The notes beneath the pieces were generated by a model that saw only the letters and a program-made list of their open reading frames with translations, did not search any database and was not told where the DNA came from. Of a DNA stretch of 21,347 nt, positions 3,075 to 17,536 are shown piece after piece; the first letter of the stretch is position 1, and each line of letters starts with the position of its first letter. Source of the stretch: a virus; the IMG/VR virus record IMGVR_UViG_3300004369_000181, positions 1 to 21,347 of that record. One strand, written 5' to 3'. The position numbers and the translations under genes are program-made.

Positions 3075-3641
3075 ATGGCAACGAAGTTTGTACTCTTTTG
3101 TTCCCCCGACTACGTTAAACAGGCCACCGTGCTTGAACGTACCGTTGATGACGACCTGTTGTCACCTTGTATCTACAACGCACAGGAACGGCACATTCTG
3201 CCGACCCTTGGGGAGAACCTTTACGACACCATGGCAAGCAAGGTGGCATCATCGGCCGTGAGTGGGGACTACAAGACCCTTCTGGACGCTTATATTGCCC
3301 CGGCCTTGGTACATTTCAGCATGGCAGAGGTGATACCACACCTCCGGGTGCGTTTGGCCCTAAACAGTGCCACAACGGCCTCAAGTGATGGGGCCGCTGC
3401 CGTACCGGAGGCCGACCTCCGGGCCATTGTGAACAGGGCCGAACAGTTGGGCAACTTCCACAAGGAACGTCTAATTGATTGGTTGATGCAGAACGGGTCG
3501 TTGGTACCGGAGTACCTAACCAACACGTCACCACAGTTGCAACCAACACGACGTAACTACACACAAGGTCTAAACGTGGACCCCACGTACGGCAACCAGT
3601 CGTACGACATTGTGAAGCAACTTCTTGGCCTAAAAACATGA
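3075..3641 (+). CDS. Head-tail connector-like protein
   Basis: 188 residues, starting 2 bases after the portal stop. The N-terminal half reads 'VDDDLLSPCIYNAQERHILPTLGENLYDTM', with a gap of helices, then 'YIAPALVHFSMAEVIPHLRVRL'. This helical pattern (two-step 'I..AQ...I.P.LG..LYD' followed by 'Y..P.L....') matches a family found directly after portal genes in Bacteroidota phages, and resembles the gp6/gp15-type adaptors that dock under the portal. The C-terminal part (150-188) is polar and probably extended. Position after portal supports an adaptor role. The exact family is assigned from memory. Confidence 0.55.
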   Translation: MATKFVLFCSPDYVKQATVLERTVDDDLLSPCIYNAQERHILPTLGENLYDTMASKVASSAVSGDYKTLLDAYIAPALVHFSMAEVIPHLRVRLALNSATTASSDGAAAVPEADLRAIVNRAEQLGNFHKERLIDWLMQNGSLVPEYLTNTSPQLQPTRRNYTQGLNVDPTYGNQSYDIVKQLLGLKT

Positions 3642-3787
3642 AACGACAAGACAAACGCACCGTCCGCAACATCAACCTGCTGAAACACTACATCAAACGA
3701 CATGGCATCTCGGAAGATTTCATCCCTGACAGAACTGGCAACAACACCCGACTCGGGGGACCTGTTACAGGTCATCGACGTAAGTGA
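3638..3787 (+). CDS. Possible small basic protein (49 aa)
   Basis: This ORF starts with an ATGA overlap on the connector stop and ends inside the next gene, overlapping it by 86 bases. Its first 28 residues are basic and helical (begins MKRQDKRTVRNINLLKHYI) and fill the 60-base gap between the two larger genes; the rest runs out of frame with the next gene and looks non-coding. It may be a real short peptide or only a translational bridge between the two genes. Nothing about its function can be read. Confidence 0.35.
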   Translation: MKRQDKRTVRNINLLKHYIKRHGISEDFIPDRTGNNTRLGGPVTGHRRK

Positions 3788-4256
3788 CACCACCTACGCA
3801 GCCACGGGCACAAACAAGAAGATTCAGTTCAGCAACCTGATTCCGGCCCCAACGTACCGGACCATGTTCCACGGGTCGTTCTTTGACGTAGCCATCAGGG
3901 ACGTGTACTTGCCCATCACCGGTGAATCTGAAAACACACTTCCCCAACGTTGGAGCAAGATACCCATGGGGTACGACGGGTTCCTCAAGAAGGTGGTGGT
4001 GCGTCGTGAATATACCCCACCCACGTCGGGGGACCTTACGGTGACGCTACAAGAGACACCGGGTGATGGCACGTCCGTAACAAATGTTGAGGCCATCACA
4101 GTCACCCCAACGTATGGCAGCGTGTCAACAACCGTGTTTGACTTTACAAGCGCGGCCGTGTTGCAAGCCGGTTACACTTACAACCTACTGTTGACCAACG
4201 GCCTCAACTACGCCATGGGCAACACGTCCTTCACCATCGTTATTGAAATGACATGA
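3702..4256 (+). CDS. Structural protein, probable tail or head appendage
   Basis: 184 residues. The N-terminus, 'ISSLTELATTPDSGDLLQVIDVSD' (split: ISSLTELATTPDSGD, LLQVIDVSD) followed by 'GTNKKIQFSNL', is a motif I associate with the starts of phage tail fibre and appendage proteins ('kis.L....t..d.Ell.v...gtnkki..sdl'). In those proteins it acts as an attachment segment. The rest is beta-rich: 'YRTMFHGSFFDVAIRDVYLPI' region, 'SGDLTVTLQETPGDG', 'AGYTYNLLLTNG'. It resembles a jelly-roll-like domain that could cover the virion surface. There is no enzymatic motif. It overlaps the next small gene by an ATGA at 4253-4256. Confidence 0.55.
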   Translation: MASRKISSLTELATTPDSGDLLQVIDVSDTTYAATGTNKKIQFSNLIPAPTYRTMFHGSFFDVAIRDVYLPITGESENTLPQRWSKIPMGYDGFLKKVVVRREYTPPTSGDLTVTLQETPGDGTSVTNVEAITVTPTYGSVSTTVFDFTSAAVLQAGYTYNLLLTNGLNYAMGNTSFTIVIEMT

Positions 4257-4408
4257 CCTACAAATCCCAGTTCCTTCAAACCTTGACGGAGGCCGCTGAA
4301 AACGACCTAACCGATGCCGTCAACCACCTGTTGCCCATCCTCCAAGAGGTGGACACCGCCCTGGCCGACCTGGAGGCCCGTGTTACCGCTTTAGAACCGA
4401 CAAAATGA
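4253..4408 (+). CDS. Small helical protein (51 aa)
   Basis: Starts in an ATGA overlap with the structural gene before it and ends in another with the gene after it. The sequence is almost wholly helical and acidic, with heptad-like spacing in the C-terminal half (LPILQEVDTALADLEARVT), so a short coiled coil is likely. It may oligomerise with the appendage protein or act in lysis; neither can be decided from the sequence. The precise overlaps at both ends are the main evidence that it is translated. Confidence 0.6.
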   Translation: MTYKSQFLQTLTEAAENDLTDAVNHLLPILQEVDTALADLEARVTALEPTK

Positions 4409-4497
4409 TTAGCACTGGAGAACTGATTATCCTTGTCGTGTCCGTGTTGGGCATTGTGTCGTGGATTGTGGCCACCATACAAAATGACCAACTATGA
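4405..4497 (+). CDS. Single-pass membrane micropeptide (30 aa)
   Basis: A 30-residue ORF locked between neighbours by an ATGA overlap at 4405-4408 and an ATGA overlap at 4494-4497. Residues 6-26 (ELIILVVSVLGIVSWIVAT) form one clear membrane helix with very short polar ends. It sits at the head of the lysis cluster, before a second membrane/coiled-coil protein and the amidase, so a holin-accessory or spanin-like role is possible. The size is too small for family recognition. Confidence 0.5.
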   Translation: MISTGELIILVVSVLGIVSWIVATIQNDQL

Positions 4498-4700
4498 ATG
4501 AGGTGACCTTATTTGAGGCCGTGACCCTTTGTGTGGGGTTGGTTGGGTTGTACGTTAAGATGCAACAGGAGGTGGGCAAACTGAAGGCCCGTATTCATTT
4601 GATTGAGGCCGAACGTGACGAGTTCAGGGCTACCTTGAAGGAGTTACTGAACACCACACAAGAAATCAAGATAATGTTGGCCAAGAAAGGGATAGCATGA
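4494..4700 (+). CDS. Membrane-anchored coiled-coil protein
   Basis: 68 residues: an N-terminal membrane helix (about 5-21, LFEAVTLCVGLVGLYV) followed by a long charged helix rich in Glu, Lys and Leu (KLKARIHLIEAERDEFRAT and on to residue 62). This layout resembles Rz-like or XhlA-like lysis accessory proteins, which hold a coiled coil next to the cytoplasmic membrane. It overlaps the amidase gene by ATGA (4697-4700), which favours a lysis role. I see no lipobox or other diagnostic motif. Confidence 0.6.
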   Translation: MNEVTLFEAVTLCVGLVGLYVKMQQEVGKLKARIHLIEAERDEFRATLKELLNTTQEIKIMLAKKGIA

Positions 4701-5140
4701 AGGCCTTGGAGTCAGGTATGGTGATTCTACATTGCTCGGCAACACCTCCAAGCATGGACGTGGGTGTCGAGTGGATAAGGGACCTCCATGTCCACGGACG
4801 GGGGTGGTCTGATGTTGGGTACCATTTCGTCATCAAACAAGACGGGTCCATACAGATGGGCCGGCCGTTGTCACGGTCGGGTGCCCACACCAAAGGGTAC
4901 AACAACTCCATCGGCATTTGTTATGTCGGAGGGGTGGACGAGGACCACCAACCAAAAGACACCATGACATGGGAACAAGAGTTGTCGTTCTTCCAACTGT
5001 GGCACAGTCTGCTCACGCTATTTGGGCCGTTGTCCCTACATGGTCACAACGAGTTTGCCCCCAAGGCATGCCCGTCCTTTGACGTGCAAAGCAAATACCG
5101 ATTCCTAACAAACTCAAATGATACAAAACGACATGATTGA
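4697..5140 (+). CDS. N-acetylmuramoyl-L-alanine amidase (T7 lysozyme-like endolysin)
   Basis: 147 residues, the normal size for a single-domain Amidase_2/PGRP-fold endolysin such as T7 lysozyme. It cleaves the amide bond between N-acetylmuramic acid and L-Ala in peptidoglycan. Visible family landmarks are 'MVILHCSATP' (zinc ligand His12), 'GRGWSDVGYHFVI' (the GW..vGYHf core), 'GAHTKGYNNSIGICYVGG', and 'LHGHNEFAPKACPSFDV' near the C-terminus, which provides the second zinc His, the conserved Lys and the zinc-ligand Cys. No signal peptide is seen, so export needs a holin; membrane-protein genes flank it on both sides. Confidence 0.93.
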   Translation: MKALESGMVILHCSATPPSMDVGVEWIRDLHVHGRGWSDVGYHFVIKQDGSIQMGRPLSRSGAHTKGYNNSIGICYVGGVDEDHQPKDTMTWEQELSFFQLWHSLLTLFGPLSLHGHNEFAPKACPSFDVQSKYRFLTNSNDTKRHD

Positions 5141-5303
5141 CTTCATTTTGGCCCACTGGGCAGAACTGCTGATTGCCGTCATGGCCTTGGCAAAGGTGGT
5201 GGTGAATCTTACACCCACAACGGCCGACAACCAGGTGTTCGGCTACATCGACCTTCTCATCACGGCCATCACGGGTGACCGTCGTAAGAGGGGGGGTGAG
5301 TAA
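5118..5303 (+). CDS. Small membrane protein, holin candidate
   Basis: 61 residues with one strong membrane helix (about 8-30, containing AELLIAVMALAKVVVNL), then a 'LTPTTADN' turn and an amphipathic helix ending in a basic tail (GDRRKRGGE). This size and the charged C-terminus are typical of small phage holins, and it lies directly after the endolysin with a 23-base overlap. A very similar layout, including an 'LTPT..D' turn, is common in Bacteroidota phages as unassigned small proteins. Holin function is an inference from location and topology. Confidence 0.6.
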   Translation: MIQNDMIDFILAHWAELLIAVMALAKVVVNLTPTTADNQVFGYIDLLITAITGDRRKRGGE

Positions 5304-5601
5304 CACGGGCCTGAAGGCCCTACTCCTCAAACTGGACATCACCGAGGTCTTTAAGACCAAGGGGGACCTCAAACGTTGGTCTGCCAAACGCACCGTCGGT
5401 GGTGTCGTTGTACTCACCGCTTGCAACGAGGCCCTCGACAGTGGCATCACGTGGCCTGTTGTGGCCATGTGTGCCGTCGGGGTGCTACCGTTGTGCCTAT
5501 CCTTTTTTGAAAATGAAAGTCAACCACGTGGCCGCAAACGTCCACACCCTACACACCGAGTTCGAGACAGGGGAGACACAAAGGTTACTCGTTCTCTCTG
5601 A
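5296..5601 (+). CDS. Two-helix membrane protein, second holin candidate
   Basis: The most likely start is GTG at 5296, overlapping the previous stop by 8 bases; a GTG at 5275 would add seven residues. The 101-residue protein has a polar N-terminus ending 'LKRWSAKRTVGG', then two membrane helices (about 38-52 and 57-73: VVVLTACNEA and TWPVVAMCAVGVLPLCLSF). The 'RWSAKRTVGG' segment before the first helix recurs in phage holin-like proteins. The last 30 residues are basic and overlap the phosphoesterase gene by 89 bases, so this tail may be poorly constrained. Together with the preceding gene it could form a holin/antiholin pair; that is inference. Confidence 0.55.
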   Translation: MSNTGLKALLLKLDITEVFKTKGDLKRWSAKRTVGGVVVLTACNEALDSGITWPVVAMCAVGVLPLCLSFFENESQPRGRKRPHPTHRVRDRGDTKVTRSL

Positions 5602-6382
5602 CGTACACTACGATAGCACCCACTGTGACCGGGAACTCCTAACCAAACACCTTGAGGAGGCCAAGGCCACCTCATCACCCATATTCCTGAACGGAGATTT
5701 CCTCGACCTCATGGGTGGGAAGTACGACCCACGTAACACGCTACCGGGGGGCCTACGGCCCGAGTACAGGGGTCAGGACTACTTCGACCTTGTTATTGAG
5801 GACGCGGTGCGTTATTTGGCCCCCTACGCACACCTCATCATTGCCTACGGTCAGGGCAACCACGAAACCAACGTACGGAAACGACAACACACCGACCCCT
5901 CCCGTCGCATGGTTGAGGGGTTGAAGGCCCTTGGGTCACCCCTGGCCTTGGGTGGTTATGCCGGTTGGATAAGGTGGTATTGCACCTATTCAACGGAGCG
6001 TACGTCGTACGTGATACACTATCACCACGGCATGGGGGGCAATGCCCCACGGTCCAAGGGGGTGTTGCATGCTGACATAGACACGGCCCGTTATCCTGAT
6101 GCCGACTTCATTGTCCGTGGCCACGACCACAACAAATGGCACGTCCCCATGGTGGTCGAACGGCTAACGACCAAGAACCACCGACACCGTAAGACCATAC
6201 ACCACGTCCGTTGTGGGTCATATAAGGCCATGGGGGACGGTGTGTCGGGTTGGGAGGTAGAGAAAGGGTTTGGTCAACCCCGTTTGGGTGGGTATTGGTT
6301 GAAGGTGACCCGGAGTGGACACAACAGTCGTGGCAAGAGGGACCGGTTGTGGACAACAAACGTTGAGGAGGCATATTGGTAA
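5513..6382 (+). CDS. Calcineurin-like metallophosphoesterase
   Basis: I start it at the ATG at 5513 because the upstream extension of the frame runs inside the membrane-protein gene. The 289-residue protein carries the full two-metal phosphoesterase signature: 'LVLSDVHYD' (D30, H32), 'LNGDFLDL' (G61-D62), 'GQGNHET' (N116, H117), 'IHYHHG' (His cluster 169-172) and 'VRGHDHNKWH' (H204, H206). Such enzymes hydrolyse phosphomono- or diesters; the substrate cannot be read. It is the last gene before the strong terminator at 6418 and is grouped with lysis genes. Relatives in phages are sometimes annotated as DNA-repair exonuclease-like, but the SbcD/Mre11 capping domain is absent, so a small phosphodiester or nucleotide substrate seems more likely. 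Confidence 0.85.
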   Translation: MKVNHVAANVHTLHTEFETGETQRLLVLSDVHYDSTHCDRELLTKHLEEAKATSSPIFLNGDFLDLMGGKYDPRNTLPGGLRPEYRGQDYFDLVIEDAVRYLAPYAHLIIAYGQGNHETNVRKRQHTDPSRRMVEGLKALGSPLALGGYAGWIRWYCTYSTERTSYVIHYHHGMGGNAPRSKGVLHADIDTARYPDADFIVRGHDHNKWHVPMVVERLTTKNHRHRKTIHHVRCGSYKAMGDGVSGWEVEKGFGQPRLGGYWLKVTRSGHNSRGKRDRLWTTNVEEAYW

Positions 6383-6417
6383 ACGGTCACCAGGGTGTGA
6401 CACTTGTTTTTCATGGG

Positions 6418-6457
6418 TTGGGGGTCCCTGTTTTTATGGGGGTCCCCAATTTTTTTT
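6418..6457 (+). terminator. Strong terminator closing the late/lysis unit
   Basis: TTGGGG (6418-6423) can pair with CCCCAA (6444-6449), with an inner CCC/GGG pairing around a T-rich loop, followed directly by eight T residues (6450-6457). The arm GGGGGTCCC occurs twice, which also allows alternative foldings. It lies 35 bases after the phosphoesterase stop and just before the first of three early promoters, so it separates late from early transcription. Confidence 0.8.
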
Positions 6458-6476
6458 GCAGAAATATCAAAATAGA

Positions 6477-6509
6477 TTTGGATTCACAATCCAAGTCGAC
6501 TTATATTTG
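6477..6509 (+). promoter_or_regulatory. Early promoter/operator copy 1
   Basis: A perfect inverted repeat TTGGATT-CAC-AATCCAA (6478-6494) overlaps a TTTG -33 box (6477-6480). After 7 bases comes TATATTTG (6502-6509), a full match to the Bacteroidota -7 consensus TAnnTTTG. The ATG at 6514 follows after exactly 4 bases, so transcription would begin at or beside the start codon. The same arrangement recurs at 7382 and 7922. The dyad looks like the binding site for a dimeric regulator. Confidence 0.8.
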
Positions 6510-6513
6510 GCCC

Positions 6514-6717
6514 ATGGAATACACAGAAACACCCATCCACGGACAAGTCGTTAACAGTAACACACGTTGCGACACCTACGAGACCAACGGCATCTACAAA
6601 CTGGTCTACACCGACCGCCACACCGACGAGACGATTGCTACGTATTGGAGCATGCCGAGTGAGAGTTTGGTGAAGTTCTACTACCGAGTGTACAAAACAC
6701 AACAGGACTGCAAATAA
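6514..6717 (+). CDS. Early small protein of unknown function (67 aa)
   Basis: Not recognised. The frame is open upstream to 6376 but that part holds the terminator and promoter; the ATG at 6514, placed 4 bases after the -7 box, is the real start. The protein is polar with a 'NGIYKLVYTDRHTDETIATYW' core (split: NGIYKLVYTDRHTDE, TIATYW) that looks like a beta-hairpin or small beta sheet, and three scattered cysteines including one near the C-terminus (QQDCK). It is the first gene of the early operon, a position often used for host-takeover or anti-defence proteins, but nothing in the sequence proves that role. Confidence 0.65.
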   Translation: MEYTETPIHGQVVNSNTRCDTYETNGIYKLVYTDRHTDETIATYWSMPSESLVKFYYRVYKTQQDCK

Positions 6718-6723
6718 CCCCCC

Positions 6724-7032
6724 ATGGAAAACACAAACACACAAACCATGACCTACACATTCACCCCCCAACAGTTGGCCGACCTTATTGACGACGCATT
6801 TGACCTTGGCAAGGTTTACGCCACCGACGAGTTGAACACATTGCCGGCAGGGTTCTTTGCCAACACCACCACGGCCGTCTACAAGCGCAACGATAGCACG
6901 GCCGACTGTTGGACAAGGTTCCTTGACGACAACGGTGGACACGGCCTCCACAGTGGTGATGCCAAGTTGGACCTGTTGACCAAACACCTGGTGAACCACC
7001 TCCGTGACAATTTGGACGTTGACTTCGACTGA
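6724..7032 (+). CDS. Early protein of unknown function (102 aa)
   Basis: Not recognised. It begins 6 bases after the previous stop with MENTNTQ, nearly the same first codons as the genes at 7419 and 7959. A 'FTPQQLADLIDDAFDLGKVYATDEL' helix (split: FTPQQLADLID, DAFDLGKVYATDEL) leads into a polar middle and a C-terminal helix 'DLLTKHLVNHLRDNLDVDFD'. The protein is acidic (many Asp), a trait common in phage inhibitors and DNA mimics, but the acidity is modest. A good terminator follows 9 bases after the stop, so this gene ends a two-gene transcript. Confidence 0.7.
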   Translation: MENTNTQTMTYTFTPQQLADLIDDAFDLGKVYATDELNTLPAGFFANTTTAVYKRNDSTADCWTRFLDDNGGHGLHSGDAKLDLLTKHLVNHLRDNLDVDFD

Positions 7033-7041
7033 TACAAACCC

Positions 7042-7062
7042 GGGGGGCCTTGTGCCCCCCTT
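7042..7062 (+). terminator. Terminator after the first early operon
   Basis: A perfect 7-bp stem, GGGGGGC (7042-7048) with GCCCCCC (7054-7060), around the 5-base loop CTTGT. Only two T residues follow, so termination may be partial. It is similar in style to the G-rich hairpin at 810-834 and lies between two closely spaced early genes. Confidence 0.6.
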
Positions 7063-7075
7063 AACACACCCCAAC

Positions 7076-7360
7076 ATGAAAGACGAACGTAAAGTGTACC
7101 TCCAACTCCAAACGGAACTCCAAGACGAGTTACAAGCAAACGGGTTTAACCTGGTCGACTGTGGTGACTGTGGTTTCACCTTCCTGTACCGTACCCACAT
7201 CATCAACCTTGAGGCCGCTACCATGACCTACAAGGACAAGCGTCGACGTGAGTACGTGACATGCCCCTGTTGTTTGCAAACACAGGCCACGTATGACTGT
7301 CCTGACCACTTCTATCCCGGGTTTGAGGAGTCGGCCGAGTTTAGGGCATTGGACGATTGA
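7076..7360 (+). CDS. Putative zinc-ribbon early protein (94 aa)
   Basis: Started at the ATG at 7076, since the upstream part of the frame covers the terminator. An N-terminal helix (ERKVYLQLQTELQDELQ) precedes 'LVDCGDCGFTFLY' and, 30 residues on, 'YVTCPCCLQT' with another 'TYDC'. The pair of Cys-x-x-Cys-like motifs (C29/C32 and C63/C65-66) suggests a small zinc ribbon, a fold often used for nucleic acid or protein binding. No family is recognised. It has no promoter of its own and probably depends on read-through of the 7042 hairpin. Confidence 0.6.
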   Translation: MKDERKVYLQLQTELQDELQANGFNLVDCGDCGFTFLYRTHIINLEAATMTYKDKRRREYVTCPCCLQTQATYDCPDHFYPGFEESAEFRALDD

Positions 7361-13063: not shown

Positions 13064-13406
13064 AGGGGTCGGGGACACCATTGCCAAAATCACCAAGGCC
13101 ACGGGGGTTGACAAACTTGTCCACGCTATTGTGGGGGACGATTGTGGGTGTGAACAACGTAGGCAAACCCTCAACAGGTTGTTCCCCTACGCCACACCCA
13201 TGGACGCTGAAGCACGGGCCACGTACGAGGCCACGTTCAACGGGTGGGAGCAGTGGCCGGAGTTTAACCTGGAGAAGCAGAGGGTCCTTGTCACTATGCT
13301 TACAACCCACACGGGCCGACGTTACAAGTTGACCAGGTGTGGGTCGTGTGTACGGCAAAACATGAAACAACTGGAAACCATTTACAACAACTCTTGTGAG
13401 CAGTAA
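13029..13406 (+). CDS. Conserved Bacteroidota-phage protein with paired cysteines
   Basis: 125 residues; the ATG at 13029 is 35 bases inside the sigma-like gene. The motif 'GVGDTIAKITKATGVDKLV' (13-31) followed by 'GDDCGCEQR' (C39, C41), 'LNRLFPY', and C-terminal 'LTRCGSCVRQNMKQL' (C104, C107) matches a family I have seen beside sigma-like and ParB-like genes in Bacteroidota phages. The four cysteines are placed to hold one zinc ion. The middle section is a helix rich in Glu/Trp (ATYEATFNGWEQWPEF). Function is unknown; a role with RNA polymerase or the replisome is only a guess from context. Confidence 0.65.
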   Translation: MPLQKNSKTQSKGVGDTIAKITKATGVDKLVHAIVGDDCGCEQRRQTLNRLFPYATPMDAEARATYEATFNGWEQWPEFNLEKQRVLVTMLTTHTGRRYKLTRCGSCVRQNMKQLETIYNNSCEQ

Positions 13407-13416
13407 ACCAACCACC

Positions 13417-13938
13417 ATGAAGTTGAGCCAAGTACGGCCCAACCCCGACAACCCACGGTCCATCACCGAGGAGAAATTCCGTTTGCTTGTAAAGTCCGTA
13501 AAAGAGGCCCCGTGGATGTTACCTATCAGACCCCTCGTGGTGGACGAAACCAACACCGTACTGGGTGGCAACATGCGCCTCCGTGCCCTACAAGAGGCCG
13601 GTGTCAAAGAGGTGCCGGTCTACAAGGTGACGGGCCTCACCGATGAGCAGAAACGTGAGTTTGTAATCAAGGACAACGTAGGTTTCGGTCAGTGGGACTA
13701 CGACGTGCTTGCTAACGAGTGGCCCACCGACCTCCTAAACGAGTGGGGCATGGACCTTTGGGACCCGTCCGAGGAACCAGACCTTGATGAATTTTTTGAG
13801 ACGGTGGACGACGAGAAGGAGGGCAAGTTCAGGGTGGTGTTAGATTACACGGAGGCCGACTACAACACGGTCGTGGAACTGTTTAAGAACCACGACGGGT
13901 CACGTGAGGACGTGGTGCTACGGTTGCTTCAGGGATGA
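13417..13938 (+). CDS. ParB/sulfiredoxin-like nuclease-fold protein
   Basis: I prefer ATG 13417 (MKLSQVRPNPDNPR), although GTG 13396 in the same frame overlaps the previous stop. The protein (173 aa) shows the ParB N-terminal fold: 'RPNPDNPR' (7-14), 'FRLLVKSVKE', 'RPLVVDETNTVLGGNMRLRALQEAG' (split: RPLVVDETNTVLGGN, MRLRALQEAG; the GGNMR loop binds CTP/ATP in ParB) and 'FVIKDNVGFGQWDYDVLA'. An acidic C-terminal half follows. Stand-alone phage copies often sit beside DNA-modification enzymes and may act as nucleases or ATP-dependent regulators. Here it couples directly by ATGA (13935-13938) to the DpdA-like gene, which suggests a shared job in DNA modification. Confidence 0.8.
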   Translation: MKLSQVRPNPDNPRSITEEKFRLLVKSVKEAPWMLPIRPLVVDETNTVLGGNMRLRALQEAGVKEVPVYKVTGLTDEQKREFVIKDNVGFGQWDYDVLANEWPTDLLNEWGMDLWDPSEEPDLDEFFETVDDEKEGKFRVVLDYTEADYNTVVELFKNHDGSREDVVLRLLQG

Positions 13939-14675
13939 AGATTTTTTTGGCCGGGTCCGGGTGGGACAAAATTGTGTGGAGACGCAGGGGGTTCTACGAC
14001 TTCAACCGTCTTGAGTCGTTCTACATCATTGGTGACGAAAGGGAGGACATACACAAGTACAAGGCATTCCTGTTGGACAGTGGGGCCTTCTCGTACATGA
14101 GTGGCAAACGTAAGGACGCAACACCATGTGACTGGGATGCCTACATCGAGGAGTACGCCAAGTTCATCAACAGGTGGGACGTACAACACTTCTTTGAACT
14201 GGACATCGACGTGCTTGTAGGCCTTGAGGAGGTGGACCGTTTACGGGCCAAATTGGAGAACCTAACCGGCAAGCAAGCAATCCCCGTTTGGCACAAGTCA
14301 AGGGGGTTGGACTACTGGAAACGCATGGTTGAGAAGTATGACTACGTGGCCATCGGTGGTATCGTCACCAAGGAAATCAAACGGAGTGAGTACGGCATAT
14401 TTCACACCCTGTTACGTATAGCGCGTGAGAACAGGTGTAAGGTCCACGGGTTAGGGTTCACCAACCTCAAAACTCTTTTGGATTTCGACTTCTACTCCGT
14501 AGATTCGACGTCGTGGTTAGGTGGCAACCGTTTCGGTTTCATATACCACTTCAACGGCCGGTCCCTGGACATGATTAAGCGTAAACCTAACCAAAGGGTG
14601 AAGGCCCACCCGGTGGCACACCACAACTTTGAACAGTGGATGAAATTCAACAACTACATAGAATCAATCACATGA
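13935..14675 (+). CDS. dpdA: DpdA-like DNA-guanine transglycosylase
   Basis: 246 residues related to tRNA-guanine transglycosylase but much shorter and without its C-terminal zinc site. Visible landmarks: 'LLDSGAFSYM' (46-55, D48, equivalent to the DSGGFQ aspartate), 'FFELDIDVLVG' (86-96), 'IPVWHKSRG' (116-124), 'YVAIGGIV' (137-144), 'VHGLGFT' (170-176) and 'FYSVDSTSWLGG' (186-197, with D190 as the probable nucleophile). Enzymes of this type exchange guanine in DNA for a free 7-deazaguanine base. The neighbours are the complete precursor pathway, which strongly supports this role over a tRNA one. It shares ATGA overlaps with the ParB-like gene before and the queC homologue after. Which DpdA subfamily it belongs to needs a phylogeny. 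Confidence 0.85.
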   Translation: MKIFLAGSGWDKIVWRRRGFYDFNRLESFYIIGDEREDIHKYKAFLLDSGAFSYMSGKRKDATPCDWDAYIEEYAKFINRWDVQHFFELDIDVLVGLEEVDRLRAKLENLTGKQAIPVWHKSRGLDYWKRMVEKYDYVAIGGIVTKEIKRSEYGIFHTLLRIARENRCKVHGLGFTNLKTLLDFDFYSVDSTSWLGGNRFGFIYHFNGRSLDMIKRKPNQRVKAHPVAHHNFEQWMKFNNYIESIT

Positions 14676-15337
14676 AACAGTGTACCGTGCTACTCTCCGG
14701 TGGCCAAGACTCTGCCACGTGCCTGTATTGGGCCGTCAACAACTACGACAAGGTCCACACCATGTCCTTCAACTACGGACAATCCCACGCCAAGGAATTG
14801 GAGTTTGCCAAGGCCAACGCACAACGGGTTGGGGCCACCTGGGAACTCATCGACGTAAGGGGTACCCTCAAGGGGTCGTCCCTGTTGTCCGACCAGGACC
14901 ACAACGAGGGCCACACCATGAACAGTGACTTGCCGTCAAGTTTCGTGCCCGGTCGCAACCTGTTGTTTCTAACCATAGCGGCCGGCCATGCCGCCCTCGA
15001 AGGTTGTACCACCTTGGTCACCGGTGTGTGCCAAACCGACTTCAGTGGGTACCCCGATTGCAGACGTGACACCATGGATGCCTTGGAGAAGGCCCTGTCA
15101 TTGGGTATTGGGTTGGACTTTACCATTGAAACCCCCTTGATGTTTTTAACCAAGGCCGAGACGTTTAAACTGGCCAACGACTTGGGGTGCCTTGATGTCA
15201 TTGTGGAACACACGCTGACCGATTACAACGGTGACATGACCCTCAACGAGTGGGGCCGTGGCCGGTTGGACAACCCTGCAAGTGTACTCCGGGCCAAGGG
15301 TTGGGACGAAGCAAAAGAGAAGGGATGGGTCGGGTAG
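14672..15337 (+). CDS. queC: QueC homologue lacking the zinc-binding cysteines
   Basis: 221 residues from the ATG at 14672 (ATGA overlap). The N-terminal PP-loop 'LLSGGQDSATC' (SGGQDS 9-14), 'FNYGQSHAKEL', 'SSFVPGRNLLFLTIAAGHA', 'VTGVCQTDFSGYPDCR' (117-131) and 'IETPLMFLTKAET' are all as in QueC, which converts 7-carboxy-7-deazaguanine to preQ0 through an amide intermediate. The C-terminal zinc site is lost: the usual TLTCYNG reads TLTDYNG (D184), and the region equivalent to the C-x-x-C-x-x-C cluster reads WGRGRLDNPASVLRAKG (194-210) with no cysteine. The enzyme may have a changed product or fold without metal. It begins the Que part of the cassette, between dpdA and a DUF6884-like gene. Confidence 0.85.
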   Translation: MKQCTVLLSGGQDSATCLYWAVNNYDKVHTMSFNYGQSHAKELEFAKANAQRVGATWELIDVRGTLKGSSLLSDQDHNEGHTMNSDLPSSFVPGRNLLFLTIAAGHAALEGCTTLVTGVCQTDFSGYPDCRRDTMDALEKALSLGIGLDFTIETPLMFLTKAETFKLANDLGCLDVIVEHTLTDYNGDMTLNEWGRGRLDNPASVLRAKGWDEAKEKGWVG

Positions 15338-15747
15338 CACTTGTCAGTTGTGGGTCCAAAAAACAGGACCACCCATGCCCGGCCCGGAACCTGTACAACG
15401 GGGTCCTGTTTAACAAGCACCGCAAGTGGGCCGACGCTTTCACGGACGACCTTTACATCTTGTCGGCCAAATACGGCCTCATACATGGCACCAAAGTGAT
15501 TGAACCATACAACCTCACCCTCAACCGCATGAAACGAGCAGACAGGGAGCGGTGGGGCCGTTACGTGGCAAACCAAATCCAAACCACCATCCCTCCGGGG
15601 GAGACGTTGTTGTTCTTGGCCGGCAAACCGTACTACGAGAACGTCATTGGACACATCAAACACACCTACGAAATACCCTTTGAGGGGTTGACACTTGGGT
15701 ATCGTTACCAAACCATCGACAAACACGTGGCCAATGGTCATACGTAA
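15325..15747 (+). CDS. DUF6884-like protein in the deazaguanine cassette
   Basis: 140 residues from ATG 15325, overlapping queC by 13 bases. The signature 'VALVSCGSKKQDHPCPARNLYNGVLF' (split: VALVSCGSKK, QDHPCPARNLYNGVLF), 'DDLYILSAKYGLIHGTKVIEPYNLTL' (split: DDLYILSAKYGLIHG, TKVIEPYNLTL) and 'LLFLAGKPYYENVI' matches the family I recall as DUF6884: an SCgkKK start, an aRdLY..pLF helix, an lSAkyGLl..d....PYd..L core. Its biochemical role is not established to my knowledge. The conserved Cys9, Lys12-13, Lys49-Tyr50 and Pro61-Tyr62 look like an active-site cluster. Because it is embedded between queC and queD, I infer a step in making, inserting or tailoring the modified base. Confidence 0.7.
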   Translation: MGRVALVSCGSKKQDHPCPARNLYNGVLFNKHRKWADAFTDDLYILSAKYGLIHGTKVIEPYNLTLNRMKRADRERWGRYVANQIQTTIPPGETLLFLAGKPYYENVIGHIKHTYEIPFEGLTLGYRYQTIDKHVANGHT

Positions 15748-16135
15748 GATTTACCACTTCTACGCAGCACACCGGAACAAAGAGGCCGGGGTGAAGTGTG
15801 GCCGCCTACATGGGCACACCTACGACGTGGCCGTCCACGTGGCGTTCCCTAACTTTGACGGTGACGTGGCCATGCTATTCAGTGACATTGACAAGGTGGC
15901 CGAACCAGTCATCAAGTCCTTTGACCACTACCTTATCCTCGACAGTCGTGACCCCTTGGTGCCCTTGCTACGGTCGTGTCACGAACCATTTGTGGAAGTA
16001 CCCTTTGCCACAAGTGCCGAGAACATGGCCCGCCACATTGCCCACCTGTTGGAGGACCAGGGGTTGACGGTGGCCCGTATTGAGTTAGCAGAAACCAAAT
16101 CCTCAACCGTTATCTATGAACCTTCCCATCAGTGA
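15734..16135 (+). CDS. queD: 6-carboxy-5,6,7,8-tetrahydropterin synthase
   Basis: 133 residues from ATG 15734, overlapping the DUF6884-like gene by 14 bases. It has the PTPS/QueD pattern: 'FYAAHRN' (zinc ligand H13), 'KCGRLHGHTYDV' (catalytic C22, zinc ligands H26 and H28), 'FSDIDKV' near 49-55, 'FDHYLILD' (63-70), 'ATSAENMARHIA' (92-103) and the terminal 'ELAETKSS' (E120). QueD turns dihydroneopterin triphosphate, the FolE product, into 6-carboxytetrahydropterin, the QueE substrate. The family's usual 'PTSEN' reads 'ATSAEN' here, a small change. It overlaps queE by 20 bases, consistent with coupled translation. Confidence 0.92.
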   Translation: MVIRKIYHFYAAHRNKEAGVKCGRLHGHTYDVAVHVAFPNFDGDVAMLFSDIDKVAEPVIKSFDHYLILDSRDPLVPLLRSCHEPFVEVPFATSAENMARHIAHLLEDQGLTVARIELAETKSSTVIYEPSHQ

Positions 16136-16715
16136 AATTTTCTACTCCCTACAAGGGGAGGGTGCCCGTACCGGCACGGCCAACGTGTTCGTCCGTATTC
16201 AGGGGTGTAAAGCAAAGAACGCTTGTTACGCCATGGGCATCAAGTGTGACACCGAGTTTGAGAGTGGTGTGGACATGACCCTGGACGAACTGTTGGGTGT
16301 TATCCAACGTATTGGGGGCAAGTGTCGCAACATTATTTGGACAGGTGGTGAACCGGCCGACCGTGTGAACGAGGACGTGGTGGCGTACTTTAAGCGTGAG
16401 GGGTACTATCAAACCATAGAAACCTCCGGCCTGTTCCCAGTGGCCGACGGGTTTGACTTTGTGTCGGTATCACCCAAGGTGGCCGAGCATGTTGTGGCCA
16501 AGAACTTCACCCACGTCGATGAGTTACGGTACGTCAGGCACTACGGGCAAGCAATTCCCGAGCCGTCCATCACGGCCGACTACCTATACCTTTCACCCCA
16601 CTTTGATGGGTACGACATCAACCCCGACAACCTCAAACACTGCATGGACCTGTGCCTTGCTAACCCCTTGTGGCGGTTGTCCGTACAAGACCACAAACTA
16701 TGGAACATCCTTTGA
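16116..16715 (+). CDS. queE: 7-carboxy-7-deazaguanine synthase (radical SAM)
   Basis: 199 residues. The N-terminal 'ISEIFYSLQGEGARTGTANVFVR' (split: ISEIFYSLQGEG, ARTGTANVFVR) and 'WTGGEPAD' (75-82) are classic QueE. The radical-SAM cysteines are in 'IQGCKAKNACYAMGIKCDTEF': C31, C37, C44, that is C-x5-C-x6-C instead of the usual C-x3-C-x2-C or C-x14-C-x2-C. The CDTEF ending keeps the family's substrate loop. QueE contracts 6-carboxytetrahydropterin to 7-carboxy-7-deazaguanine using a [4Fe-4S] cluster, SAM and Mg2+. The C-terminal half is short, as in small QueE variants. Strong context: queD before and folE after, both overlapping. Confidence 0.9.
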   Translation: MNLPISEIFYSLQGEGARTGTANVFVRIQGCKAKNACYAMGIKCDTEFESGVDMTLDELLGVIQRIGGKCRNIIWTGGEPADRVNEDVVAYFKREGYYQTIETSGLFPVADGFDFVSVSPKVAEHVVAKNFTHVDELRYVRHYGQAIPEPSITADYLYLSPHFDGYDINPDNLKHCMDLCLANPLWRLSVQDHKLWNIL

Positions 16716-17536
16716 ACGTAACGTGGGCCGACATACGGTCCAAACTGGCCGAGGTAACGGACCCCGAGAAACGGTATTGGGGAGTCCCCCGGGGTGGGGA
16801 GATTTGTGTCAACCTGTTACCCACCACCATGATAGCAGAAACACCACAAGAGGCCGACGTAATCATCGACGACCTTGTGGACAGTGGGCACACCCGTGAC
16901 ATGATGGTGGGTTTGTACGGCAAACCCTTTGTCGGCTTGTGGGACAAACAAACGGACCCCGACTGTAAAGGACGTTGGATTCAGTTCCCTTGGGAACATG
17001 AGGCCGAAAGGGACGTAGAGCAGCACATGGCCCGGGTGATACAGTCGTTTGACGACATCAACCGTGAGGGCCTACAAGACACCCCACGACGGTACATCAA
17101 GTTCCTGTCCGAGTTTCTACAACCACCGGAATGGACGTGTACCACGTTTGATGCCGAGGGGTACGACAACATGATTGTGCAAACCAACATTCCGTTCTAC
17201 TCGTTGTGTGAACACCACCTTGCCCCATTCTTTGGGCATGGCCACATTGCGTACATACCAAACAAACGCATCGTCGGACTGTCCAAGTTGGCCCGTACTT
17301 TGGAAACCTTCTCACGACGGTTCCAAAATCAGGAACGTATCACCAACCAGGTGGCCGATTTCCTCATGAACGAGTTGGACCCCCTTGGGGTGGCGGTGGT
17401 ATTGGAGGCCGAGCATCTTTGTATGGCCATGCGTGGGGTGAAGAAGCCCAACACCAAGACCCGCACGTCCAAGTTGACGGGGGTGTTTGAGAAACAGGCC
17501 GAAACACGTCACGAGTTCCTTATATTGACACAGTGA
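16700..17536 (+). CDS. folE: Fusion of a phosphoribosyltransferase-like domain with GTP cyclohydrolase I
   Basis: 278 residues from ATG 16700, overlapping queE by 16 bases. Residues 1-105 form a type I phosphoribosyltransferase-like domain: 'YWGVPRGGEI' (27-35, the PPi loop), 'ADVIIDDLVDSGHTRDMM' (52-69, the PRPP motif) and 'GRWIQFPWE' (91-99), which resembles the purine-contacting 'TWIEQPWD' of E. coli xanthine-guanine phosphoribosyltransferase. The middle is shorter than in Gpt. Residues 106-278 are GTP cyclohydrolase I: 'DTPRRYIKFL', 'FYSLCEHHLAPFFGHGHIAYIP' (split: FYSLCEHHLAPFFGHG, HIAYIP; C170, H173), 'IVGLSKLAR', 'QERITNQVADFL' and 'EAEHLCMAMRGV' (C241). FolE makes dihydroneopterin triphosphate from GTP, the first step toward 7-deazaguanine. 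The fusion could feed recycled guanine into that step. Confidence 0.9.
   Translation: MEHPLNVTWADIRSKLAEVTDPEKRYWGVPRGGEICVNLLPTTMIAETPQEADVIIDDLVDSGHTRDMMVGLYGKPFVGLWDKQTDPDCKGRWIQFPWEHEAERDVEQHMARVIQSFDDINREGLQDTPRRYIKFLSEFLQPPEWTCTTFDAEGYDNMIVQTNIPFYSLCEHHLAPFFGHGHIAYIPNKRIVGLSKLARTLETFSRRFQNQERITNQVADFLMNELDPLGVAVVLEAEHLCMAMRGVKKPNTKTRTSKLTGVFEKQAETRHEFLILTQ

Follow-up and report, generated by a model that had tools for sequence, protein, structure and literature searches.

Can QueC still make preQ0 once its zinc site has gone, or does the loss of zinc mean that the enzyme has taken on another product? Zinc has been called a hallmark of QueC, and the enzyme is said to need it to function (PMC13329287), which counts against a zinc-free preQ0 synthase, and in a 21,347-base virus record (the window, meaning the whole stretch of DNA analysed) we find an open reading frame for a QueC in which all four zinc cysteines are replaced. 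The frame opens with ATG at 14672, overlapping the stop of an upstream DpdA-like gene by four bases, and its stop codon ends at 15337. The gene and the codons under discussion are as follows.

14672..15337, + strand: zinc-free QueC (predicted 7-cyano-7-deazaguanine synthase), 221 aa (PF06508, TIGR00364, AF2 model)
15221..15223, + strand: codon of D184, which replaces zinc Cys 1 (alignment)
15224..15226, + strand: codon of Y185, kept, equivalent to E. coli Tyr189 (alignment; PMC13329287)
15263..15265, + strand: codon of R198, which replaces zinc Cys 2; a variable position within the clade
15272..15274, + strand: codon of N201, which replaces zinc Cys 3; invariant, immediately before the predicted helix 202-216
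15281..15283, + strand: codon of S204, which replaces zinc Cys 4; almost every zinc-free row has Ser or Thr here
15326..15328, + strand: codon of W219, a new Trp near the C terminus that is fixed across the clade and not found in zinc types

The protein matches the QueC family model over residues 4-214 of 221 (PF06508, E = 2.3e-57) and scores 192.8 bits against the TIGR00364 equivalog, which has a cut-off of 150.3. When it is aligned to B. subtilis QueC (3bl5), the positions of zinc Cys 1 to 4 are occupied by D184, R198, N201 and S204, which bears out the claim of the first-pass annotation that all four cysteines are gone; the motifs quoted there are present letter for letter (SGGQDS at residues 9-14, CQTDFSGYPDCR, TLTDYNG, and GRGRLDNPAS before LRAKG). 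A DNA pattern of the replacement motif matches the window once and matches none of 100 shuffles. Among the 118 QueCs of our tree (66 rows with the zinc-free motif, the QueC of Pseudanabaena phage Pan1 and 51 four-cysteine rows), D184 is invariant in the 66 zinc-free rows and occurs in none of the 51 zinc-type rows, and the only columns that are fixed in the former and rare in the latter are D184, N201, A214 and W219. Since C173, the nearest other cysteine to the site, varies among relatives, the window protein has no obvious substitute ligand set. Across the alignment no Cys or His column combines fixation throughout the clade with rarity among zinc types: fixation is limited to viral rows for H77 and to bacterial rows for H81, and H153 is common to both types. 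These patterns do not fit substitute zinc ligands, and we rejected them as candidates.

For E. coli QueC, the motifs described are the PP-loop, YxQxHxxE, VPxRN, YPDC and the Tyr beside the first zinc ligand, and the residues reported as essential are Y35, R99, Y131 and Y189 (PMC13329287). Like canonical QueC, the window protein has the phosphate loop SGGxDS, YxQxHxxE (as Y35GQSH39AKE42), the RN of VPxRN (as VPGRN), YPDC at 127-130 and the essential Tyr, Y185, and the canonical queD/queE neighbourhood lies beside its gene; unlike canonical QueC, it lacks C(x)8CxxCxxC, having Asp, a variable residue, Asn and Ser/Thr there, and carries the new fixed Trp near its C terminus. The PP-loop and all four residues that the E. 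coli enzyme reportedly cannot do without are kept across the zinc-free clade. In the viral zinc-free proteins VPxRN often becomes T-[ASP]-x-RN (T in 32 of 67 rows), a shift that does not affect the window and that, because VPxRN is a reported catalytic motif, also counts against reading these proteins as preQ0 synthases.

The other QueC-like families differ from the window protein more plainly. The archaeosine-type Gat-QueC has a fused glutamine amidotransferase domain, for which a 221-residue protein with QueC spanning 4-214 leaves no counterpart, and QatC, at about 400 aa, carries a C(x)19CGxCxxRR motif that the window protein lacks. Cap9 of type IV CBASS (9nto) has a fold like that of the window QueC (Z 22.1) at 18% identity, but it has retained a zinc motif, and what it modifies is a CD-NTase (PMC13329287); the Cap9 motif CE(x)6CxxCxxCxD is absent from the window protein, and no CD-NTase gene was found among the window proteins scanned, which were part of the ORFs. 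Zinc-type phage QueCs (CAjan, Synechococcus phage Ssp-JY38, Sulfitobacter phage M39) keep all four cysteines, share with the window protein a WGxG insert before the zinc cluster and, in CAjan and Ssp-JY38, have the same pathway genes nearby; they fall outside the zinc-free clade in the tree, and that clade also includes bacterial forms. Pan1 (L090, 5983-6813), which also carries a DpdA-like gene, has a second kind of zinc-free QueC, near a QueF gene: it too lacks the four cysteines, but its site (TAYDG...) has the letters A, T, D and T, and it sits on a long branch whose position in the tree is unsure. Our searches of the open-licence literature listed nothing whose title or abstract concerned a zinc-free QueC.

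The gene order in the window is ParB, DpdA-like, QueC, DUF6884, QueD, QueE, FolE and terminase, and the neighbours of queC are listed below.

13396..13938, + strand: ParB-like protein, first in the conserved order (PF02195; in 73 of 82 loci)
13935..14675, + strand: DpdA-like transglycosylase, 246 aa (phrog_887, 8.6e-53; weak NF041059 match)
15325..15747, + strand: DUF6884 protein (YaaA-like), between queC and queD (PF21818, 6.2e-38)
15734..16135, + strand: QueD, with His residues that resemble its usual zinc ligands (PF01242, 2.3e-21)
16116..16715, + strand: QueE radical-SAM protein with Cys spacing C-x5-C-x6-C (TIGR04508, 103.8 bits, below the cut-off of 240)
16670..17536, + strand: FolE, GTP cyclohydrolase I (PF01227, 2.2e-60, residues 118-286)

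Several of these genes have features of their own. The DUF6884 gene lies between queC and queD in only two of the 82 viral loci, the window and L049, and its product might act on the inserted base. The match of the operon QueE to QueE models is real, yet below their cut-offs; among the QueE matches of all viral and bacterial loci, Cys spacings of 5-6 (48 matches) and 3-18 (30) prevail, and the usual spacings are rarer (3-2 in 13, 14-2 in 5). FolE would have about 110 additional N-terminal residues if its GTG start is used, and FolE is of similar length in many viral relatives. A VIIDDLVDSGHT stretch in this extension (16670-17000) resembles what we take to be a PRPP-binding motif; a phosphoribosyltransferase domain before FolE was rejected, as there is only that motif and one weak Pfam match in a relative (L015, E = 0.011). 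The window terminase has its nearest matches in Flavobacterium phages and in one record of a faecal phage (38-39% identity), and the similarity to Flavobacterium phages hints at a Bacteroidota host. No QueF is present in the window's own 21 kb fragment, so the product of its QueC has to be read from relatives.

A scan with the window protein returned one relative (L001), and a scan with the two aligned returned 80 more viral loci, the best 80 of 175 confirmed relatives. The zinc cysteines are absent from all 82 viral proteins (the window, L001 and these best 80 of 175), 65 of which are distinct, and the motif TDY[ND]G...WGxG...NPA[STA]xLR is common to them, with 80 matching the strict expression and the other two differing by one letter. 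DpdA is present at all 82 loci, and DpdA, QueC, QueD, QueE and FolE occur together at 77, counts that rest on contig fragments. At 12 of the 82 loci, dpdA and queC have a QueF gene between them, which overlaps the queC start or ends within 18 bases of it; for the other 70 operons, QueF is not in the stretch sequenced, these contigs being fragments. The phage QueF keeps its Cys and Asp, presumably the catalytic residues, and the one copy tested, from L015, passes the NCBIfam preQ1-synthase equivalog (104.6 against 86.9 bits). L003, which of all rows in the tree set has the highest identity to the window protein (61%), carries QueF.

The genome scan gave 80 bacterial loci, the best 80 of 546 confirmed relatives, with the zinc-free motif in 34 (L091-L124) and four cysteines in 45; the fraction 34/80, like the uniform absence of the cysteines from the 80 viral loci, thus describes nearest relatives and not all QueC. 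The remaining locus (L135, in a Poribacteria bin) is a disrupted second zinc-free queC with an in-frame stop, whose genome also holds an intact copy. Most of the 34 zinc-free loci come from Bacteroidota and Rhodothermota; a few are from Planctomycetota and Poribacteria, and one is from an Ignavibacteriota bin. Rhodocytophaga aerolata (L100) and Longimonas halophila (L110) are among the bacteria represented, and several of the genomes are metagenome bins that are not complete. For 30 of the 34, the zinc-free protein stands alone as a strong QueC match, nothing else in the genome scoring above 35 bits with PF06508. The other four have a second match, which is of the zinc type in G005 and G007, a disrupted copy in G009 and a divergent protein (85 bits) in G030; not all 34 are sole copies, because L095 (G005) and L097 (G007) accompany a zinc-type QueC. 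At L095, a phage-like operon (QueD-QueE-FolE-QueC-DpdA-ParB, 3377-7330) lies inside a bacterial contig of an Ignavibacteria bin, and it is probably a prophage, the zinc-type QueC of that genome being separate from it.

The company that the bacterial proteins keep is that of the synthesis of queuosine, a modified tRNA base. Above family cut-offs, TGT is found in 30 of the 34 genomes, QueF in 31 and QueA, the step after TGT in the queuosine route, in 32, and all three are present in 24 of the 30 genomes in which zinc-free QueC is the sole strong match. QueF converts preQ0 to preQ1, TGT inserts preQ1 in tRNA, and two more steps give queuosine (PMC6884629). The queuosine route with QueF in bacteria therefore requires the nitrile preQ0. 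As a check that does not start from similarity to the window, we scanned 296 genomes from the phylum of one zinc-free bacterium, using a DNA pattern that would encode W-G-x-G-x-x-[DN]-N-P-A. The pattern matched 13 genomes and its reversed control none; one match (G248) lies outside QueC, four genomes were already in the set and eight are further ones. In each of the eight, a single full QueC, which its sequence shows to be zinc-free, is accompanied by one TGT and by QueF no more than about 1 kb away. Were preQ0 not the product of the zinc-free protein, QueF in these bacteria would have no supply made by the cell itself. It counts against the preQ0-synthase reading that QueF could use preQ0 that is imported or host-made. 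Because the zinc-free form is the only copy in many queuosine-making bacteria, the usual product is most likely still made without zinc.

Whether the zinc was lost once was read from the tree, for which alignment columns 182-208 of the window were taken out before building; with the zinc-site columns removed, the zinc trait cannot shape the tree. All 67 zinc-free rows lie on one side of a single branch (SH-aLRT 99, in a quick tree with SH-aLRT support and no bootstrap), and the trait needs one change on the tree against a mean of 38.5 for shuffled labels. Over related pairs, which overlap and are not independent, the median dN/dS is about 0.12 for the whole gene and 0.09 in the 28-codon zinc-loop stretch, a low value that indicates that the new loop is under selection. 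With a single clade and low dN/dS, decay of queC was rejected, and the first-pass view of a specialised branch rather than simple decay held up. Zinc-free QueC is a real lineage, neither decay nor one-off.

What might hold the enzyme together is suggested by an AF2 model of the window QueC (32 sequences, pLDDT 92.9), which shows the QueC fold all the way to the C terminus. It matches canonical QueCs (PF06508 cluster 1), namely 3bl5 of B. subtilis (Z 25.2, rmsd 2.4 over 190 residues) and 2pg3 of E. carotovora (Z 23.9), at 42-44% identity to the window protein. The last helix is predicted at 202-216, starting right after N201, and N-P-A-[ST] at such a point is a capping pattern common ahead of helices, in which Asn before the helix and Ser/Thr three residues in are a familiar pair. 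The zinc knuckle, by which the C-terminal hairpin and the last helix are fastened to the active site, would have become a metal-free cap, with Asp in place of Cys 1, and with Asn and Ser/Thr replacing Cys 3 and 4 where the last helix begins; the new W219 probably packs near it. We infer N201 as N-cap, the geometry of the cap and the absence of metal, and, from the capping pair, that the helix cap together with D184 and W219 holds what zinc held. The role of the cap would be to keep the essential Tyr185 positioned, as zinc does in other QueCs.

The same residues could be viewed as a metal site of another kind, since Asp, Asn and Ser/Thr are oxygen donors and D184 and N201 are invariant, so that D184, N201 and S/T204 would bind a hard ion such as Mg or Ca with preQ0 still the product. 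This reading, which concerns a detail within the preferred explanation, we regard as unlikely: residue 198 varies freely, N-P-A-[ST] ahead of a helix is the capping pattern already described, and a metal is not visible in the AF2 model. Nor is the lineage readily explained as a stand-in under zinc scarcity, like the zinc-free copies of other enzymes. Zinc is the metal lost and the change is clean, but the protein is the sole strong match in 30 of 34 genomes and not a second copy, and the QueD and FolE of the window operon keep residues that look like what we take to be their usual zinc ligands, which makes zinc sparing highly unlikely. On the same presumed ligands, general zinc avoidance across the operon was rejected.

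There remains the product. The first-pass annotation had suggested that the reaction may have changed, stopping at the amide or releasing the carboxyl group, and this finds no support in the bacteria, where zinc-free QueC is the sole copy beside the queuosine route and QueF, nor in the phages, where an intact QueF adjoins zinc-free queC in the 12 operons described. An enzyme that stops after the first ammonia addition would release ADG, and the phage would carry dADG. ADG is a known intermediate of the QueC reaction (PMC13329287), and in the 70 operons where QueF is not in the stretch sequenced it would block no visible later step. However, the bacterial members are the only QueC of queuosine makers with QueF, QueF-bearing phages, including L003, have the same protein, and phage CP220, reported along with CPt10 to replace all dG with dADG (PMC8306585), points the other way: the CP220 QueC keeps all four zinc cysteines, SCYKGGNKPCNVCPTC. 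Since CP220 joins amide DNA to a zinc motif and the present operons join zinc loss to QueF, zinc loss does not track amide DNA. We rejected a link between the two, and an amide synthase is very unlikely. We give a comparably low likelihood to a divided family in which the QueF-less phage members, the window's included, release ADG or another CDG derivative and the bacterial members keep preQ0 synthesis; if it were true, zinc loss would have prepared a new DNA base in phages. A remodelled site that frees the carboxyl group to give 7-deazaguanine, or other new chemistry, is extremely unlikely. A decarboxylase, DpdL, has reportedly been proposed for phages in their 7-deazaguanine pathway, but all ATP-pyrophosphatase and substrate motifs are kept here, ATP activation is not expected of a decarboxylase, and the QueF and queuosine context weighs against it as it does against an amide product.

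We therefore consider that the window protein is very probably a genuine preQ0 synthase (QueC) of a lineage without zinc, its knuckle turned into a metal-free cap. The lost residues form a site that looks structural, the reported catalytic residues remain and the gene context demands the nitrile, so a changed product does not follow. Zinc-free QueC would activate CDG (7-carboxy-7-deazaguanine) with ATP and add ammonia, giving first the amide ADG and then the nitrile preQ0; DpdA, encoded next to it, would place preQ0 into phage DNA. The substitutions, the single clade, the kept catalytic motifs, the operon and the co-occurrence are properties of the sequences compared; from that context we infer the activity and the product.

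Hence, a lineage of bacteria and phages appears to run the QueC pathway without zinc, which suggests that zinc in QueC is a structural clamp and not a catalyst. These natural zinc-free enzymes offer a means of testing the role of zinc and how QueC makes a nitrile. They also bring a caution to the annotation of phage DNA modification, where the loss of cysteines need not mean a lost or changed function.
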